Assembly: GCF_008329945.1 (NCBI RefSeq) | Contig: NZ_CP035807.1 | Coordinates: 2,232,001 to 2,296,000 of the forward strand | Direction of reading: 5' to 3' | DNA: 64,000 nucleotides | Source of the DNA: Thiospirochaeta perfilievii | Lineage (GTDB): Bacteria > Spirochaetota > Spirochaetia > DSM-2461 | Made by a program: the position numbers and the translations under genes | The notes under the pieces: model-generated | What the model saw: the letters and a program-made list of their open reading frames with translations, nothing else | Database searches by the model: none | Told to the model about the DNA's origin: nothing | Shown here: positions 707-48,186 of the stretch, piece by piece | Layout of the letters: every line of letters begins with the position of its first letter | Numbering within the stretch: the stretch's first letter is position 1

Positions 707-1719
707 TAGATAGAACAGTGGAAGAGATAATCGCCCTATATAAAAATGAGGATCCTACAGAGCTATATAAAGCTGCATGGGATGTTACTACAGAGTTTCA
801 TGGGGATAGTGTCTATTTAAGAGGACTTGTAGAGTTTACAAATAAGTGTGTAATAAACTGTGAATATTGTGGTATTAGAAGGGATAACACCAATGTTTCA
901 AGGTATAGCCTAGATAGTAAAACCATTGTGGATACCTGTTTGGAAGGCTTTAATAAAGGGCTTAGAACCTTTGTGTTACAAGGAGGAGAGGATAAGGATA
1001 TCTCTGTTTCCTCTCTATGTGATACTGTAAAAAAAATAAAAGAGTCCACAGATCATAAGGCAGCTATAACCCTAAGTTTTGGCTCTAGGAGTCTAGAAGA
1101 GTATAAGATGATGAAATCCGCTGGGGCTGATAGATATCTTTTAAGGTTTGAAACTAGCGACCCAGAGTTACACTTTAAATTAAGGGGTATTTCCCTAGAA
1201 AAGAGGCTTAAAAACATTGAGGATATTAGGTCTGCAGGACTTCAGGTTGGCTCCGGTTATATGACAGGGCTTCCAGGGGAAACAGAGGAGACAAGAATTA
1301 ATAATGCTCTACTGTGTAAAGAGTTGGACCTGGATATGGTAGGTATTGGACCTTTTATCCCAAGTGATGAGACTCCATTAGCTGGATCAGCCCAGGAGCC
1401 AATTGACTACGCATTAAGGGGTACTGCTCTATTAAGGCTTCTTCTTCCTAAGGCACATATACCTGCTACTACTGCAGCAGGTTCTCTAAAACCTACAGGT
1501 AGGGAGGATATGATAAGGGCTGGGGCAAATGTATTAATGCCCAACCTTACTCCTGTTAGCGTAAAAAAGGACTACCTACTATATCCTGGTAAAATCTGTT
1601 TAGATGAAACAGGTTCCCAATGTATCGGTTGTATGGGAATGAGGGTAAAAAGTGTTGGAAGGAAGATCGATTTCTCAAGGGCTGATGCCCTAAGATTAAT
1701 GGGCATAAGTTATGCCTGA
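703..1719 (+). CDS. hydE: [FeFe]-hydrogenase maturase HydE, radical SAM
   Basis: HydE is the radical-SAM maturase that acts on the HydG-made Fe(CO)2CN cysteine synthon to build the dithiolate-bridged diiron precursor. The 338-residue protein has the radical-SAM motif CX3CX2C at C49, C53 and C56 (KCVINCEYC). It also has the optional second-cluster motif CX7CX2C near the C-terminus (CLDETGSQCIGC), which only part of the family keeps. Length matches known HydE (about 340-350). The ATG overlaps the hydG stop, and the end overlaps the next gene's ATG by 8 bases, so the set is one operon. Confidence 0.95.
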   Translation: MIDRTVEEIIALYKNEDPTELYKAAWDVTTEFHGDSVYLRGLVEFTNKCVINCEYCGIRRDNTNVSRYSLDSKTIVDTCLEGFNKGLRTFVLQGGEDKDISVSSLCDTVKKIKESTDHKAAITLSFGSRSLEEYKMMKSAGADRYLLRFETSDPELHFKLRGISLEKRLKNIEDIRSAGLQVGSGYMTGLPGETEETRINNALLCKELDLDMVGIGPFIPSDETPLAGSAQEPIDYALRGTALLRLLLPKAHIPATTAAGSLKPTGREDMIRAGANVLMPNLTPVSVKKDYLLYPGKICLDETGSQCIGCMGMRVKSVGRKIDFSRADALRLMGISYA

Positions 1720-3036
1720 TTTTATAGGGGAACAGACGGCTAATGCTATACATAACTGGGGGGAGGGGGTAACCCCACCCTGCTTAGTTAAAGCCTACGC
1801 CCAGGTAAAAAAAAGTGCACTATTAGCTGTAAACGATGTAGACCCATCTCTGGGAATAGAAATTTTTAAGAAGGTAATTGAAGTTTTAGATAGAGTGATA
1901 GGTGGGGAGTTTAACCATCTATTTAAACTTCCATTAAAACAGGGGGGGCAGGAACTAGTTTAAATATGAATATGAATGAAGTTATAACTTTTTTAGTTAA
2001 TAAAGAGTTAGGTGGAGATTATGTTGAGTATTTAGAGGATATAAATAAGTTTCAGTCAACAAATGATACTTTTAATACAGCTGTAACCGTAGTATTTCTA
2101 CGCCACCTTGAGAGTATAGAGAAGATGGTTATTGAACTCCAGGAGATTTTAGTTGAAAAAGAGACTTTTTATTCAAGCCTACTAATAACAGGTCGAACAG
2201 AGATGGTTAGTGCCCTTCCAATAACCCTTGGCCAGGTATTTTCGTCCTATGCCGGGGCTATAGAGAGGGACAGATGGAGATTTAATAAGATAAAAGAGAG
2301 GGTTAGACCTTCAGTTTTAGGTGGAACAGCTATGGGCACCTGTTTTGGAGCCCCATCTAAATATCTTTTTTCTGCAGAGAAACATCTTAGGGCTATAACC
2401 GGACTATCCCTACCTCGGAGTCAAAACCTCGTTTCTGATATCTCCATGTGTGATAAGTTTGTAGAAGCTGGAGCCGTGTATGATGTTCTTTCTAATACCC
2501 TTTTTAAAATGGCCTCCGACTTTACATATTATGTCTCTAGAGGGGAGTTTATTCACCCTAATTTACAGTATGGGTCAACAATTATGCCTATAAAAACAAA
2601 TCCTGTTTTATTAGAGTTTGTAAAGGGCTTAGCTATCGATATAAGCCTAGAATCTAGAAAAATCGGTGAGTATTCCAGGAATGGTCAGCTTCAATTAAAC
2701 CCATTTTTACCCTTTATTTTAGACGCTGAGATATCTATTTTTAAATCTTTAATAAAAGCAATGGATAGCCTAATGTTATTTATAGCAAACCTTAAGGTTG
2801 ATAAAGAAGTAATAAACAATAACTTAATAAACTCCAATGCTATGGTAAATAGTTTAAGACCCTATTGTGACTATACTACCCTTAAAAACATTGGGGAGAT
2901 TTTAAAGGATGTAAAAGTTAAAGATATTGAAGAGTTAAAAGTTGTAATAGTAAATAACTGCGACTTAACCATGGAGTTTTTAGACGAGTATCTAAAACCT
3001 GGAGGTTTTACATCATTCCTAAAGGAGAATATATGA
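1712..3036 (+). CDS. aspA: Aspartate ammonia-lyase homologue of the hyd operon, reading frame broken by one missing G
   Basis: Two consecutive frames together make one aspartase/fumarase-superfamily protein of about 441 residues. Bases 1712-1963 give the N-terminal part (ANAIHNW, VKKSALLAVN) and the frame holding 1948-3036 gives the rest, with the superfamily signature GSTIMPIKTNPV near the C-terminal half. The break is in a run of seven G (1942-1948). With eight, the peptide would read QGGAGTSLNMNMNEV, as in ordinary aspartases (E. coli: QGGAGTSVNMNTNEV). The N-terminus is about 15 residues shorter than E. coli AspA. Aspartase would release ammonia from aspartate; placement between hydE and hydF suggests it supplies nitrogen for the H-cluster bridge (inference). 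Possible readings are sequencing error, pseudogene, phase variation, or slippage on G_GGG_GGG. Confidence 0.85.
1942..1948 (+). other. Seven-G tract at the aspA frame break
   Basis: Frame-0 codons are CAG GGG GGG CAG and lead to TAA at 1961-1963. A -1 shift on G_GGG_GGG makes base 1948 the first base of GCA and restores the conserved aspartase sequence. The tract also fits the X_XXY_YYZ form of ribosomal slippery sites. No strong hairpin is visible immediately downstream, so a plain one-base undercall or deletion is at least as likely. Confidence 0.8.
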
Positions 3037-18009: not shown

Positions 18010-18999
18010 ATGAAAAAAATTATTTTATTAAGCGTTATGTTTGTTTCAACTTTAGCTGTTTTTGCATCAGCTAATAGTGAGAATTCAGAAGCTAGTAGTT
18101 CTTCAGCTAGCAATAGTTGGATGGTAGAGTCTGAGGATGGAATTTTGCCAGGTGTAAACCCAATAAATGTTAAAGGTGATATAATAACAGCAGGATCATC
18201 TACAGTTTTTCCTCTCTCAGAAGCCATGGCTGAAAGATTTCAAGACGAGGGTTATGCAGGAAATATAACTGTGGATTCTATTGGTTCAGGTGCAGGATTT
18301 GAAAGATTTACAGTAACAGGAGAGACTGATATTTCTAATGCTTCTAGACCTATTAAATCAAAAGAGATCGAAGCTGCTAAAAAGATTGGACGAAACCCAA
18401 TCGAGTTTAGAGTAGGAACAGATGCACTAGCTGTAACTGTTGCAAAAAGTAATACATTTATTAAAGATGCATCAATAGATGAACTTGTAAAGATATTTAC
18501 AGCTGAAAAATGGAGTGATGTTAACCCAAGCTGGCCAGATGAAAAAATATTAAAGTTTATACCTGGAACAGATTCTGGTACATTTGACTACTTTGTTGAA
18601 GAAGTTTTTGATAAAGATTCTGCACCACTATTAAGTGCAGCAAACGTACAGATGTCCGAGGATGACAACATTTTAGTTCAAGGAATTACAGAATCTCCAT
18701 ATGGAATAGGGTTCTTTGGGTATGCATATTACAGTGAGAATAAAGATATCCTAAATATTCTTAGTATTGATGGTGTAGAACCAATAAAAGAGAATGTTGA
18801 TGCAGCGAAATATCCCCTTGCTAGACCTTTATTTATCTACTCTGATGCAGAAGTTATGAAGAGCAAACCACAGGTTGCAGCTTTTATCAACTTCTACTTA
18901 ACTTATGTAAACGAAGAAGTTACTAGAGTTGGTTATTTCCCTGCAGATGAAAGTGTTATTGCAAAAGGTAAAGCTGCATGGTTAGAGGCTATGAAGTAA
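18010..18999 (+). CDS. pstS: Phosphate ABC transporter, phosphate-binding protein
   Basis: Periplasmic or lipid-anchored high-affinity phosphate receptor, 329 residues. An N-terminal signal sequence (MKKIILLSVMFVSTLAVFA) is followed by a Ser-rich linker, then the PstS signature AGSSTVFPLSEAMAERF. Phosphate-binding loops are visible (DSIGSGAGFERF, PGTDSGTFDYFVEE). No clear lipobox Cys is present, so it may be soluble in the periplasm. The ribosome binding site TAGGAG precedes the ATG. It is separated from pstC by its own terminator and a second Pho box, allowing higher expression of the receptor. Confidence 0.95.
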   Translation: MKKIILLSVMFVSTLAVFASANSENSEASSSSASNSWMVESEDGILPGVNPINVKGDIITAGSSTVFPLSEAMAERFQDEGYAGNITVDSIGSGAGFERFTVTGETDISNASRPIKSKEIEAAKKIGRNPIEFRVGTDALAVTVAKSNTFIKDASIDELVKIFTAEKWSDVNPSWPDEKILKFIPGTDSGTFDYFVEEVFDKDSAPLLSAANVQMSEDDNILVQGITESPYGIGFFGYAYYSENKDILNILSIDGVEPIKENVDAAKYPLARPLFIYSDAEVMKSKPQVAAFINFYLTYVNEEVTRVGYFPADESVIAKGKAAWLEAMK

Positions 19000-19023
19000 A
19001 AGTATTATTAAAATGATCATAAA

Positions 19024-19049
19024 GTCTGCTATATGCAGGCTTTTTTTTT
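19024..19049 (+). terminator. Terminator after pstS
   Basis: GTCTGC (19024-19029) pairs with GCAGGC (19035-19040, one G-T pair) across TATAT, followed by nine T. The T-run merges into the next Pho box. Confidence 0.85.
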
Positions 19050-19074
19050 AACCAAATCTTAACAGAACATAAAC
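19047..19074 (+). promoter_or_regulatory. Pho-box-like direct repeats upstream of pstC
   Basis: TTTAAC (19047-19052), CTTAAC (19058-19063) and ATAAAC (19069-19074) again lie at 11-base steps. The TTTAACCAAA core is shared with the pstS box. AT-rich -10-like sequence follows about 10 bases later, as in Pho promoters that lack a -35. Confidence 0.72.
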
Positions 19075-19132
19075 ATAATCCTAAATAATAATTTGTATTG
19101 TAGACTTATAAAAATTATTTAGGAGTTTCTTA

Positions 19133-20044
19133 GTGACAAAATCTAAGAGGGAGTGGTATGTGGGGAAACCCAAATATCATGAAAAAATAATACAGACCAT
19201 ACTTGCTGTAAGTGCAGTTTTAAGTGTTTTAATAACATTTGGGATTGTATATATATTAGGTAAAGAGTCTCTGTTATTTTTTAAAGAAGTTAGTATTGTA
19301 GAGTTTTTTACTTCAACTAAATGGCAACCCTTAATTAATGAGTTTGGGGTTCTTCCCTTAATTAATTCTACTTTAACTACAAGTTTTATTGCAATGTTAG
19401 TCGCTGGACCGTTAGGTTTATTTGTTGCCATATACCTAAGCGAGTATGCCAGTGAAAAAGCTAGAAGTATCTTAAAGCCAATTTTAGAGGTTTTAGCTGG
19501 AATACCTACAGTTGTATACGGTTATTTTGCTTTAACTTTTATGACTCCTCTTTTAAGGTTAATTTTTGGTAAAGATACTGTTGACATTTATAATACTGCA
19601 TCAGCAGGGCTTGTAATGGGTATTCTAATCCTTCCTTTAGTTGCCTCAATAACAGAAGATGCATTAAAAGCTGTTCCAAGTTCTTTAAGGGAGGCTGCTT
19701 TTGGCCTAGGTGGAAATAAATTACATACTAGTATGACTATTGTTGTTCCTGCAGCATTTAGTGGAATATCCGCAGCATTTATTTTAGGTTTAAGTCGGGC
19801 CATTGGTGAGACTATGATTGTAGCCCTAGCAGCTGGAGCTGGCTCAAACTTTACTTTTAATCCATTTGAAGCTGCTGAAACATTAACAGGATATATAGTA
19901 AGAATATCAGGTGGAGATGTTAGTTATAATACAATGGATTATAACAGTATCTTTGCTCTTGGACTATTACTATTTTTTATTACACTTAGTTTAAATGTAT
20001 TAAGTAGAAAACTTGTTAGAAAGTATCAGGAGGAGTATGATTAA
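19133..20044 (+). CDS. pstC: Phosphate ABC transporter permease PstC
   Basis: Inner-membrane permease half, 303 residues with about six transmembrane segments. The start is GTG 19133 with AGGAG 8 bases upstream. The ABC-interaction loop is visible as EAAFGLGGNKLHTSMTIVVPAA (EAAxxLG type), and the conserved ALSRAIGET-like segment reads LSRAIGETM. It is the first gene of the pstCAB-phoU unit and overlaps pstA by 8 bases. Confidence 0.95.
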   Translation: MTKSKREWYVGKPKYHEKIIQTILAVSAVLSVLITFGIVYILGKESLLFFKEVSIVEFFTSTKWQPLINEFGVLPLINSTLTTSFIAMLVAGPLGLFVAIYLSEYASEKARSILKPILEVLAGIPTVVYGYFALTFMTPLLRLIFGKDTVDIYNTASAGLVMGILILPLVASITEDALKAVPSSLREAAFGLGGNKLHTSMTIVVPAAFSGISAAFILGLSRAIGETMIVALAAGAGSNFTFNPFEAAETLTGYIVRISGGDVSYNTMDYNSIFALGLLLFFITLSLNVLSRKLVRKYQEEYD

Positions 20045-42842: not shown

Positions 42843-43085
42843 ATGACAGAGAATGACTTAAAAATTGAGCTAATGTGTTATAAGGAGTATGTAAATCCAG
42901 ATTGTGATATTGATAATATGACAAAGGATGAGTTAGAAGAGTTTTACAATCTTTATGTTAAATCAGAATCCTATATGGCTGAAGTAAACACTGCTTCTTC
43001 TCTTAATAATAAATCGGCAAAAGTTTTAAAAGAGCAGGATGTTGAGATACCTCAAAAAAGAGAGGGTGCAATATATAAATACTAG
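42843..43085 (+). CDS. Small acidic hypothetical protein before a NarL-type kinase
   Basis: An 80-residue acidic protein with no signal peptide or membrane segment; the first half is predicted helical (NMTKDELEEFYNLYVKSES). AAAGGAG lies 7 bases before the ATG, supporting translation. It leads the two-component genes, so it may modulate them, but I do not recognise the family. Confidence 0.65.
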   Translation: MTENDLKIELMCYKEYVNPDCDIDNMTKDELEEFYNLYVKSESYMAEVNTASSLNNKSAKVLKEQDVEIPQKREGAIYKY

Positions 43086-43101
43086 TATTACAATAGATAA
43101 A

Positions 43102-44316
43102 ATGAAGAGAGATAAGCTTAGTATCTATATATTACTATTTGGAGCATCATTAGTTGTTCATCTATTTGTATTTTTTGATTATAAGTTTCTGCTTGAGAGT
43201 TGGAGCCAACCTAAAAACTGGCATCTTCAGAGTTATATATTAATATTAGTCTCATTTTTAATATCAGCATTATTGATTTTTACTAAAAAATTGAGACTTC
43301 TTCTATTAAATATTAAATTCGCTACTCTAGTTTTAATTGGGTATCCCCTAGGGGAGTATTTAAATATAGAGACCATTTTACTAGCTTCAATTATTTTAGA
43401 AGCGGTCTATTATATTCCTAAGTTGTATGGAGGTTTTTTATCTATTCTATTTATACTAATTACCTTTTTAAATCAAAAACCGGTTACAACCTGGGGAGTT
43501 TCGCTTAATAAGCCTGATACCCACCAACTGCTGTTTTTTATTTTTACCTCTCTATTAATATTATCCATTGCAATATTTCTAAAGACAATTTTTAAAAAGT
43601 TTGAAGATAGTAGTTTTAATGTAAACCGACTAGATAATGCGGTAAAAGAGTTGACAGATATTAATCTTGACTTTCAAAACTATGCAGCAGCAGTTGAGCA
43701 TGAGGCTATTGAGAAGGAGAGAAAGAGAATATCCAGGGAGATGCATGATATAATAGGTTATACCCTAACTAACCAATTAATGATTATTCAAGCAGTATTA
43801 AGTTTGGGAGAGGATCTCTCCCCTGAGATTAAAAAATTACTTCTTCAATCCCAGCAGCAAACTAATGATGGAATGGCCCAAGCCAGAAATGCACTTTATA
43901 AACTTAGAGAGTTCTCCCCTGATAGTGAGGTCGGGATTAAGTTAATCTATAAGCTTGTAAGAACCTTTGAGCAGATAACGGGGATAGATATAAAAATTGA
44001 TTTCTCCAATACTCCTGATACCTTTGGAAGAGTTATCGATATGGTTATTTATAGACTTACACAGGAGAGTTTAACTAACGCATTTAGACACGGGAAAGCT
44101 ACAAAAATATCAATCATAATGGCACTAAGGAATGAGGAAATTTTAATTAGTATTTGGGATAATGGTAAGGGGGCTAGTAAAATAAATGAAGGTATTGGGC
44201 TTAAGGGTATGAGGGAGAGGCTTAGTTCTATAAATGGAACCTTTCAAACAATGACATTAAATAGTGGGTTTACTATTAGAGCTAGAATTCCCTATTCTAT
44301 AAAACAGATGGAGTAA
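43102..44316 (+). CDS. NarL-type sensor histidine kinase
   Basis: A 405-residue kinase (from ATG 43102) with about six membrane segments in the first 170 residues and little periplasmic sequence. A coiled linker follows, then a HisKA_3 domain with the phospho-His in RKRISREMHDIIGYTLTNQL and an ATPase domain (IWDNGKG, GLKGMRERL). Start choice is uncertain: an ATG in frame exists at 43039 inside the preceding gene. TACAAT (43089-43094) 7 bases before 43102 and the absence of a ribosome binding site favour 43102 with a possible leaderless message. It pairs with the regulator directly downstream. Confidence 0.85.
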   Translation: MKRDKLSIYILLFGASLVVHLFVFFDYKFLLESWSQPKNWHLQSYILILVSFLISALLIFTKKLRLLLLNIKFATLVLIGYPLGEYLNIETILLASIILEAVYYIPKLYGGFLSILFILITFLNQKPVTTWGVSLNKPDTHQLLFFIFTSLLILSIAIFLKTIFKKFEDSSFNVNRLDNAVKELTDINLDFQNYAAAVEHEAIEKERKRISREMHDIIGYTLTNQLMIIQAVLSLGEDLSPEIKKLLLQSQQQTNDGMAQARNALYKLREFSPDSEVGIKLIYKLVRTFEQITGIDIKIDFSNTPDTFGRVIDMVIYRLTQESLTNAFRHGKATKISIIMALRNEEILISIWDNGKGASKINEGIGLKGMRERLSSINGTFQTMTLNSGFTIRARIPYSIKQME

Positions 44317-44319
44317 TAA

Positions 44320-45018
44320 ATGAATATTTTATTGGTTGATGATCAACTACTATTTTTGGAAAGTTTAAAAATTGTCTTAGAGAATTTAGATAAAACCTTT
44401 AAGGTGGTTGGGCTTGCAGGAAATGGTGAAGAGGCTGTTAAATTAGTTCAAGAACTAAGTGTTGATCTAATTTTAATGGATGTAAGAATGCCTGTAATGG
44501 ATGGTGTTGCAGCTACTAAGATTATTAAAGAGAAGTTTCCAAAGATTAATATAATCATGTTAACCACATTTGAAGATGATGAGTATGTAAAGGATGCTTT
44601 GCATAATGGGGCGGATGGTTATATGCTCAAAAATATTCCTCCTGAGATGTTAGTCTCATCAATTCAGGCAGTTAAAGATGGGGCTGTTTTAATCTCTCCC
44701 TCTGTGGCAGGCCACTTAATTGACAGTATGTATGTGAATAATAAAAAAGCAGCATCAAATTTAAAAAGAGATATTCCTGATTGGTACAACCTTCTTAATT
44801 CAAGGGAAAAAAATATAATAAAACTACTAATAAAGGGAAGGAGTAATAGTGAAATAGCAGAAGAGATCTTTGTTGGCTCCCAAACTATTAGAAACTATAT
44901 AAGTGTTATCTACTCTAAATTAGATGTAGGAAATAGAACCGAGGCAATAAGAAAAGCCCAACAGATAGACTCTTTTTTTACGATTAGTTACAATGTGATT
45001 TATAAAAGTACATTTTAG
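44320..45018 (+). CDS. NarL/LuxR-family response regulator
   Basis: A 232-residue regulator with a receiver domain (ILLVDDQLLFLESL, Asp in DLILMDVRMPVMDG, Lys in DGYMLKNIP) and a LuxR-type helix-turn-helix (LNSREKNIIKLLIKGRSNSEIAEEIF, split here only by reading order). It begins 3 bases after the kinase stop. Its likely target is the sugar ABC operon 70 bases downstream, whose promoter has a weak -35 as expected for activator dependence (inference). Confidence 0.92.
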   Translation: MNILLVDDQLLFLESLKIVLENLDKTFKVVGLAGNGEEAVKLVQELSVDLILMDVRMPVMDGVAATKIIKEKFPKINIIMLTTFEDDEYVKDALHNGADGYMLKNIPPEMLVSSIQAVKDGAVLISPSVAGHLIDSMYVNNKKAASNLKRDIPDWYNLLNSREKNIIKLLIKGRSNSEIAEEIFVGSQTIRNYISVIYSKLDVGNRTEAIRKAQQIDSFFTISYNVIYKSTF

Positions 45019-45091: not shown

Positions 45092-46368
45092 ATGAAAAGA
45101 ACACTTTGTCTATTTATTGTTTTTGTTTTAGCTGTAAGTGGTATTATGGCAAATGGAAATGGTGAAGCTAAAGTCGAAAATGCTAGTAACAGTGTAGAAC
45201 TTATTATGGGGTCTTGGAGAACTGATGATACAGCTCAGATGAAAGCTGTATTAGGTGAGTTTACAAAACAACATCCAAATATTAAGGTTGTTTTCCAACC
45301 TACTATACCTGCAGAGTATAATACTACTTTAAGAATGCAGTTAGAGGGGGGATTGGTCCTGACGTTATGTATGCAAGATCCTTTGCTACAGGAAATCAAT
45401 TATATCAAGATGGCTTTTTTGCAGACGTTTCTTCTGTAGAAGGTTATGCTACAAACTACAGTGGTAGTAATAAAGCTCCATGGTTAGCAACTGATGGTAA
45501 GGCTTTTGGTATTCCTTTTGCCGCTGTATCCCACGGAATTTATTACAATAAAGAGATTTTTAAAGAGTTAGGACTTACTAAACCTAAAGATTGGGATGAA
45601 TTTTTAGATTATTGCCAAAAAATTAAAGATGCAGGGTACATTCCTTTAGCAAACAGTTTAGGTGATGAGTGGGATATTACAGAAGTAGTTTTTATGAACA
45701 TTGCTCCTAACTTTATAGGTGGAATGGAGGGACGATTAGCCTATGATAAAAAAGAGAAAGCTTTTAATGGTCCTGAAGTAGTAGCTCTATTTGAGGCTAT
45801 GAAGTCTTTAGCTCCATATCTTCCTGGTGGATTTGAAGCTCTTGGATATAATGATAGTAATGCCCTATTTGCAACAGGTCAGGCTGCAATGTATTTTGAT
45901 GGTTCTTGGTCTATTAGTACTTTTGATGATGTAGACTTCGAGTGGGGTATTCTTCCTCCTCCTGCTCCAAAGGGTGCAGAAAAAGAGTATATAACATTCC
46001 ATGCTGATGCTGGTATGGCTATGAATAGTAAAACAAAACATCCTAATGAAGTAAAAACTCTATTAGCTTGGTTTGGTTCTAAAGATGGTGCCGCAGCCCT
46101 AGCTAAATACCTTCCTACAGGGTTTTTCCCAATGTCAGAAAACTCGGTTGTTATAGAGGATGTTCATGCAAATGAGTTTTTAAGCCTTAATAACGGTAGA
46201 GGAACAGATGTTAGATGGGCATGGCCTAAATTATTAGGTGGTGAGCCAAGTGGTTATACTTTAATGCAGGAAGGCTCAATAGCTGTAATAAATGGGGATA
46301 AAACTCCTAAAGAAGCAGCAGATGATTTTAAATCAGGTCTTGCAGAGTGGTATCCACCAGCACAATAG
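45092..46368 (+). CDS. Sugar ABC transporter substrate-binding protein, frame broken by one missing G
   Basis: Two frames together encode one family-1 sugar-binding lipoprotein or periplasmic protein of about 425 residues. Bases 45092-45351 give the signal sequence (MKRTLCLFIVFVLAVSGIMA) and first lobe (IKVVFQPTIPAEYNTTLRMQLEGG). The frame from 45346 gives the rest (GPDVMYARSFATG, WDEFLDYCQKIKDAGYIP, ALFATGQAAMYFDGSWS). The break is at six G (45346-45351); seven would restore the expected GGIGPDVMY junction. The two permeases follow. If the deletion is real, the importer has no receptor. Confidence 0.88.
45346..45351 (+). other. Six-G tract at the binding-protein frame break
   Basis: Frame-0 codons are TTA GAG GGG GGA TTG. 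A -1 shift on G_GGG_GGA puts the ribosome at ATT (45352) and restores homology. The heptamer is of the X_XXY_YYZ form, like the one in aspA. Confidence 0.8.
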
Positions 46369-46415: not shown

Positions 46416-47372
46416 ATGGTGGATAATCTTATAAGAAGCAGAAACAGTACATTTTTTAGTAAACGTGGTTTTAAATGGTTTTTATACCTACTTCCAGCCT
46501 TAGTTTTTTATACAGGATTTATGGCATATCCAATTCTAAACTCAATCAAATTAAGTTTTTTTTCAGAAACAGTACAAAGTGGTCAAGACTTTGTTGGTTT
46601 TAATAACTATATAAAACTTTTTACCCACCCGGGAACTTCAGAGAGGTATTGGTCTGCATTTAGAAATACATGGTTATTCTTTGGAGTACACATGGTTGTT
46701 CAAAATGTGCTAGGTATTATTTTTGCAAACTTTCTATCTGATAAACTACTAAGAGGAAGTGGCTTTTTTAGGACAATTATTTTCCTACCTGCTACGCTTT
46801 CAATTCTGGTTACAGGTTATATATGGAAACTAATTTTAAATCCACAATGGGGTGCAGTTAACCTACTTTTAAAAAATATTGGGTTTGAGGATTTTTCAAT
46901 TGCATGGTTAGGTGAACCTAAAATTGCTCTAATTGTAATTAGTCTTGTGTCGTCGTGGCAGTGGGTTGGAATGCCAACTATGATGTTTTTAGCTGGTTTA
47001 AATAATATTCCAGAGGATTTATACGAAGCTGCAGAGATATCCGGAGCTACAGATTGGCAGGTTTTTTGGTTCATAAAGTTGCCTCTTTTGAAACCTGTTA
47101 TAGGAATTATAACAATATTAACCTTTGTAAATAACTTTAACGCTTTTGACGTTGTTTTCTCTATGGCCAATGTTAATGGAGCTCCAGCATATTCTACAGA
47201 TATTTTAGGAACTTTTTTCTACAGAGTTGGTATTGCAGGTCAGCACCCTGTGGGTATCCCTGATAAGGGGTTAGGAGCAGCAGTTGCTACAATTACATTT
47301 ATTCTGTTATCTATTGGTGTTGCACTAATAATGAGGGCTACTGGTTCAAATAGAGGGGGATCAAATGATTAA
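46416..47372 (+). CDS. Sugar ABC transporter permease, MalF/UgpA type
   Basis: A 318-residue inner-membrane permease with about six membrane segments, the first at LYLLPALVFYTGFMAYPIL. The EAA loop is visible as LYEAAEISGATDWQVFWFIKLPLL. AAAGGAG lies before ATG 46416. It works with the next permease and the upstream binding protein. No ATPase gene is present in the operon, so a shared MsmX/UgpC-type ATPase encoded elsewhere is expected. Confidence 0.93.
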   Translation: MVDNLIRSRNSTFFSKRGFKWFLYLLPALVFYTGFMAYPILNSIKLSFFSETVQSGQDFVGFNNYIKLFTHPGTSERYWSAFRNTWLFFGVHMVVQNVLGIIFANFLSDKLLRGSGFFRTIIFLPATLSILVTGYIWKLILNPQWGAVNLLLKNIGFEDFSIAWLGEPKIALIVISLVSSWQWVGMPTMMFLAGLNNIPEDLYEAAEISGATDWQVFWFIKLPLLKPVIGIITILTFVNNFNAFDVVFSMANVNGAPAYSTDILGTFFYRVGIAGQHPVGIPDKGLGAAVATITFILLSIGVALIMRATGSNRGGSND

Positions 47373-48186
47373 AAAGAAGCAAATCCTACCATATACGGTT
47401 TTAAGTATATGGAGTTTAGTTGTATTGTTCCCAATTTGGACAATGGTTATAAACTCGTTTAAGTTTAAATTAAGTATATACAAAGACCCTTTTGGACTAC
47501 CAACAAAGTGGAACTTTGGGAGCTATTTAACAGTATTTAGCGATAGTGATTTTTTTGTTTACTTTAAAAATAGTCTAGTAGTTACTATTGGTTCAATTAT
47601 ATGTATTTTAGTTTTTGGGTCCCTTGCGGCTTACGCTATGGCTAACTGGAAAAGTCGATTCTCTAAGTGGATATATCTATTTTTTATTGCAGGGTTAATG
47701 GTTCCGCTTAGGATTGGTAGTATAAATCTACTTCAGATAGTTAAGAGTTTAAACCTACTAAATACATATGTTAGTCTGTTTCCTATTTATATCGCAATGG
47801 GACTACCTATGGCAACATTTGTTTTAACTGAGTTTGTAAGACAGATTCCAGAGTCTCTTACAGAAGCTGCGTTAATTGATGGGGCTAGAAGATCAAGGAT
47901 CTTTGTCACTATTATTGTTCCCCTATTAAGACCAGCTTTAGGAACTGTTGCAATTTTAAACTTAGTTCCCCTATGGAATGATCTTTGGTTTCCCCTGCTT
48001 TTTATTACAGATGAGAAACAAAAAACACTTATTTTAGGGGTTACAAGGCTGTTTGGTCAGTATCAAACTGATTGGTCGAGGATTTTGGCTGTATTAACTC
48101 TATCGGCTATACCTGTTATGGGTCTATATCTATTAATGTCTAAACAATTTATTAAAGGATTAACTGCGGGGTCTGTAAAAGGATAA
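47365..48186 (+). CDS. Sugar ABC transporter permease, MalG/UgpE type
   Basis: A 273-residue permease. Its EAA loop reads LTEAALIDGARRSRIFVTIIVPLL, typical of the second permease of family-1 sugar importers, and it ends in the common QFIKGLTAGSVKG motif. It overlaps the first permease by 8 bases, so translation is coupled. It is the last gene of this operon. Confidence 0.93.
   Translation: MIKKKQILPYTVLSIWSLVVLFPIWTMVINSFKFKLSIYKDPFGLPTKWNFGSYLTVFSDSDFFVYFKNSLVVTIGSIICILVFGSLAAYAMANWKSRFSKWIYLFFIAGLMVPLRIGSINLLQIVKSLNLLNTYVSLFPIYIAMGLPMATFVLTEFVRQIPESLTEAALIDGARRSRIFVTIIVPLLRPALGTVAILNLVPLWNDLWFPLLFITDEKQKTLILGVTRLFGQYQTDWSRILAVLTLSAIPVMGLYLLMSKQFIKGLTAGSVKG

Follow-up and report, generated by a model that had tools for sequence, protein, structure and literature searches.

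How does a solute-binding protein gene of Thiospirochaeta perfilievii come to be read in two frames, when everything around it has the appearance of a working transport locus? The gene lies in a stretch of 64,000 nucleotides of contig NZ_CP035807.1 (the window, whose own coordinates are used unless another locus is named), and its coding frame switches at a run of six G at 45346–45351 on the plus strand. Such a switch could reflect recoding, a recent mutation of the strain, or an error in the assembled sequence. We have compared these possibilities using the window, homologous loci from other genomes and a larger sample of the same assembly.

The interrupted gene and its neighbours

The upstream part of the gene as assembled is an ORF of 115 aa (45092–45439, plus strand), in which about 85 residues are genuine and the remainder is an out-of-frame tail. 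The downstream part (45349–46368, plus strand; SBP_bac_1 / SBP_bac_8) is intact, with a frame that stays open until the stop ending at 46368 and an ATG at 45367 as its first listed start. Both parts were assigned from their ORFs, Pfam matches and relatives, and the switch point from the coding signal and relatives. The codon-based coding signal changes frame at the G6 tract, with the offset expected if one base were lacking there. The initial annotation had described the gene as split by one missing G in this tract, with the zero frame ending soon afterwards; both statements hold, the zero frame stopping at 45439. The two pieces match adjacent parts of a single Pfam SBP_bac_1 model, the upstream piece covering profile positions 5–47 (21.8 bits, which alone is below the curated cut-off of 26) and the downstream piece positions 46–306 (107 bits), and together they match the profile across the protein. 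The ORFs and translations of the two halves show no further stop or change of frame. The observation of a split SBP_bac_1 gene at the G6 tract is confirmed.

Directly downstream, two plus-strand genes recognised from their ORFs and Pfam matches encode ABC permease subunits of the BPD_transp_1 family (46416–47372 and 47365–48186). The gene thus placed resembles those of family-1 extracellular solute-binding proteins of ABC importers in its profile matches to SBP_bac_1 / SBP_bac_8, in the adjoining permease genes and in a start that, by eye, resembles a putative signal peptide; the sole difference is the assembled frame break. Presumably this family-1 sugar-binding protein is of the CUT1 type. 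On the upstream side, ORFs and Pfam matches identify a sensor histidine kinase (HisKA_3, HATPase_c; 43039–44316, plus strand) followed by a LuxR-type response regulator (Response_reg, GerE; 44320–45018, plus strand), which are possibly the regulators of the adjoining importer genes. Judged from its components, the locus is an ordinary ABC importer cluster in which the gene for the binding protein is split on paper.

The junction in homologous loci

A homologue search covered 61 genomes including the organism's own, 24 of which had a match at the limit used, and a separate scan of named genomes added three MAG loci. The junction comparison consisted of 22 loci from other genomes (L004–L025), taken from 33 listed matches (20 of them as loci, one being the organism's own) and from the MAGs. 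In all 22 the junction is crossed in a single frame, and none of them carries six consecutive G at that point. The same-genus orthologue, 83% identical over the downstream part, has GAA GGA GGA ATT at the junction and reads LEGGIGPDVMYARSF in one frame there, as anticipated by the earlier suggestion that one added G restores the expected junction. Identity over the downstream half is 46–83% in eight loci and only 29–37% in the other 14, so the latter are family members more than certain orthologues. One in-match stop was flagged in three loci (L008, L010 and L011); the open frame of L010 and of L011 nevertheless attains the usual length, and that of L008 ends early, well past the junction and close to the contig end.

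Relative to the orthologue from the same genus, dN is 0.21 for the upstream part (85 codons) and 0.12 for the downstream part (339 codons), with corresponding dS values of 2.96 and 1.25 that are near or at saturation. Divergence is mainly synonymous in both halves, which shows that purifying selection acted on each of them at least until recently. This pattern, with no further stop or switch, agrees with the initial view that the halves are otherwise intact and do not represent an old pseudogene.

Frame switches elsewhere in the assembly

The genome comprises 3.70 Mb in two contigs. Contig 2 (L046, L047; 32844 bases) may be a plasmid or a phage; no near match to its first 20000 bases was found in a plasmid collection that may omit records of this genome. 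The assembly was sampled as 40 stretches of 20 kb which, with the window, amount to 864 kb, and controls of 400 kb each came from two single-contig genomes, one belonging to the same family and the other to the same class. Coding G/C tracts of at least six bases switch frame in 5 of 40 cases here versus 0 of 48 in the two controls (one-sided Fisher p = 0.017, uncorrected for four tract classes). Among the five, L083:18953 has the opposite phase and L096:6735 resembles a natural stop; with the latter removed the count becomes 4/39 (p = 0.037, uncorrected). The raw rate is not significantly higher here for G/C tracts of 4–5 (16/1485 versus 13/1096 in the controls), A/T tracts of 5–6 (57/3360 versus 10/769) or A/T tracts of at least seven (12/431 versus 4/72), raw counts that include natural gene junctions and may let these swamp rare mid-gene events. 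A statistical excess over the controls is therefore confined to one of the four tract classes, G/C of at least six. Across the whole genome there are 32 G/C tracts of 7–8 bases, of which 11 are coding and in frame, three switch frame and the other 18 lack a clear coding signal on at least one side. Because 11 of the 14 clearly coding tracts keep their frame, the homopolymer errors of the assembly are not uniform, and the idea that all long G tracts were under-called alike is rejected. The genome-wide list also contains a further frame switch at a seven-base G/C tract, L061:1501.

The tract survey yielded 90 switches, of which those at A/T tracts of at least six and all those at G/C tracts were inspected, leaving aside 38 at A/T tracts of five. 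A dynamic-programming frameshift detector gave 253 events, mostly evidently false among those listed, and was dropped; a windowed detector was also noisy, and the detectors, the coding signal and the tract survey were used solely to propose sites. Twenty-three proposed sites in the 864 kb were then read by eye in three frames, and 15 were judged to be mid-gene switches at homopolymers, 14 of them one base short and one (L083:18953) of the opposite phase. The other eight (L085:15695, L028:5297, L082:8253, L031:16301, L080:8641, window:656, L027:9107 and L097:19224) were dropped as natural gene junctions or unclear. The switches of the controls (11 rows for G005, 16 for G050) were inspected by eye over shorter stretches, which makes their comparison with the mid-gene calls an unmatched one; many resemble natural junctions and some are ambiguous (L105, L114, L136).

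Both halves fall in one Pfam model at four of the 15 sites: the SBP_bac_1 gene, a MoxR ATPase (L038:10749–11725; AAA_3 profile 1–104, then 105–131 in successive pieces), FliR (L080:11477–12258; Bac_export_1 profile 4–43, then 60–227) and a LacI-type regulator (L090:13960–15080; Peripla_BP_1 profile 3–124, a weak match of 16.6 bits, then 142–278). At five more it is the downstream piece that enters a model internally, from position 14 of Cellulase in an apparently split GH5 gene (L034:3054–4240), 78 of Lyase_1, 49 of Glycos_transf_1 in a glycosyltransferase gene (L078:18533–19707), 13 of DUF2161 and 4 of AzlC. The Lyase_1 case, an aspartase/fumarase-type lyase gene within the window (1709–3036), is split like the binding-protein gene, here at a G7 tract (1942–1948). 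The remaining six sites have Pfam support in one piece or none: those in L089, L037 and L087 in the upstream piece only, and L078:5888 and two L083 sites in no piece. On the minus strand of L083, a candidate gene at 18759–19400 changes frame twice in opposite directions, at a C5 and a C7 tract some 340 bases from each other, and none of its three pieces has a Pfam match.

For these other split genes, 26 genomes were searched per gene, the organism's own included. The downstream half of the aspartase-type gene has matches in 14 other genomes, none with internal stops, and open frames of 415–575 aa in relatives compare with 369 here. FliR has matches in 20 other genomes, again none with stops. 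The best MoxR match in each of 21 other genomes is free of stops (a weaker paralogue in another genome carries a TGA), and the protein measures 325–326 aa in the same genus versus 191 here. For GH5 a single relative, with 35% identity, came within the limit used. In each of the two same-genus genomes the counterparts of the aspartase, FliR and MoxR genes have an open frame, and codons run continuously across the position of the break in the relatives inspected (four for MoxR, four for FliR and five for the aspartase). At the MoxR break, one same-genus gene has seven T versus six T in this assembly.

Origin of the split

Recoding would mean that the two halves are joined either at G_GGG_GGA, by programmed −1 ribosomal frameshifting, or by transcriptional slippage along the run of G. 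The initial annotation had pointed to the X_XXY_YYZ form of this heptamer, which is present in the right phase at 45346–45352, and a −1 slip there would yield the expected junction. In this respect the locus is like programmed −1 frameshift genes such as dnaX (GeneTack survey, PMC3711429), whereas here the shift is not conserved and a stimulatory structure was not found: the RNA at and after the tract, folded without pseudoknots, does no better than shuffled sequences (z = +1.38 for 45346–45425 and +0.76 for 45353–45420). Both the site and the frame break are absent from the 22 homologous loci compared; every one of them reads in a single frame without the G tract, so there is no conserved programmed frameshift at the junction. 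In the 864 kb sample, eight stretches of 200 or more codons free of stops also contain this heptamer in the zero phase, other split genes of the assembly carry A, T or C tracts, and an abundant binding protein would seem to have no obvious gain from such control. With no counterpart in the relatives compared, no RNA fold better than that of shuffles and the occurrences in eight long open frames, the hint of a working slippery heptamer is not sustained, and we regard recoding as very unlikely. Still more improbable is that the six G are real and that this lineage puts up with many homopolymers one base short in its genes, its polymerase or ribosome slipping on them so efficiently that split genes are expressed genome-wide.

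A genuine loss of one base from the G tract, recent in this strain, would give a young pseudogene or a slippage variant able to revert, with sugar uptake switched off; this appears unlikely. G tracts are prone to slippage, the halves are without decay as a young event predicts, and most coding G7–G8 tracts of the genome are in frame, which indicates that the consensus is often right. The defects in MoxR, FliR and the aspartase-type gene would, however, need several independent recent losses. Six G is also short for a contingency tract, and MutS and MutL both score over the cut-off and read without stops, which makes a mismatch-repair mutator unlikely; neither the mutator background nor the long tract of a phase-variable pseudogene was found here.

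The split is instead very probably a residual homopolymer-length error of the assembly. The length of the homopolymer would have been under-called, the G tract thereby assembled one base too short and the ORF split on paper only, and the real gene would be an ordinary intact family-1 sugar-binding protein gene heading the ABC importer cluster. What points to a sequence error is that unrelated genes are affected in a like manner at other homopolymers, mostly by deletions (one base short at 14 of 15 sites, judged by eye). The assembly probably derives from long reads, and we infer that the cause lies in the read or consensus step and not in the cell.

Comparable errors have been described. Residual errors in long-read-only bacterial assemblies are mostly homopolymer indels that lead to frameshifts (PMC8812927), and in one benchmark false deletions, associated with homopolymers two to eight long, made up most of the indel errors (PMC12007338). 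The present case shares with these reports the single-base deletions that split otherwise intact genes of one assembly. With 15 judged sites in 864 kb, their frequency here appears to be well below that of the Kastor example. For curation, homopolymer-split genes of this assembly, such as the solute-binding protein gene and the aspartase-type gene of the window, FliR and MoxR, call for a check against the reads before they are taken for pseudogenes or for cases of recoding, and they should not count as gene losses.
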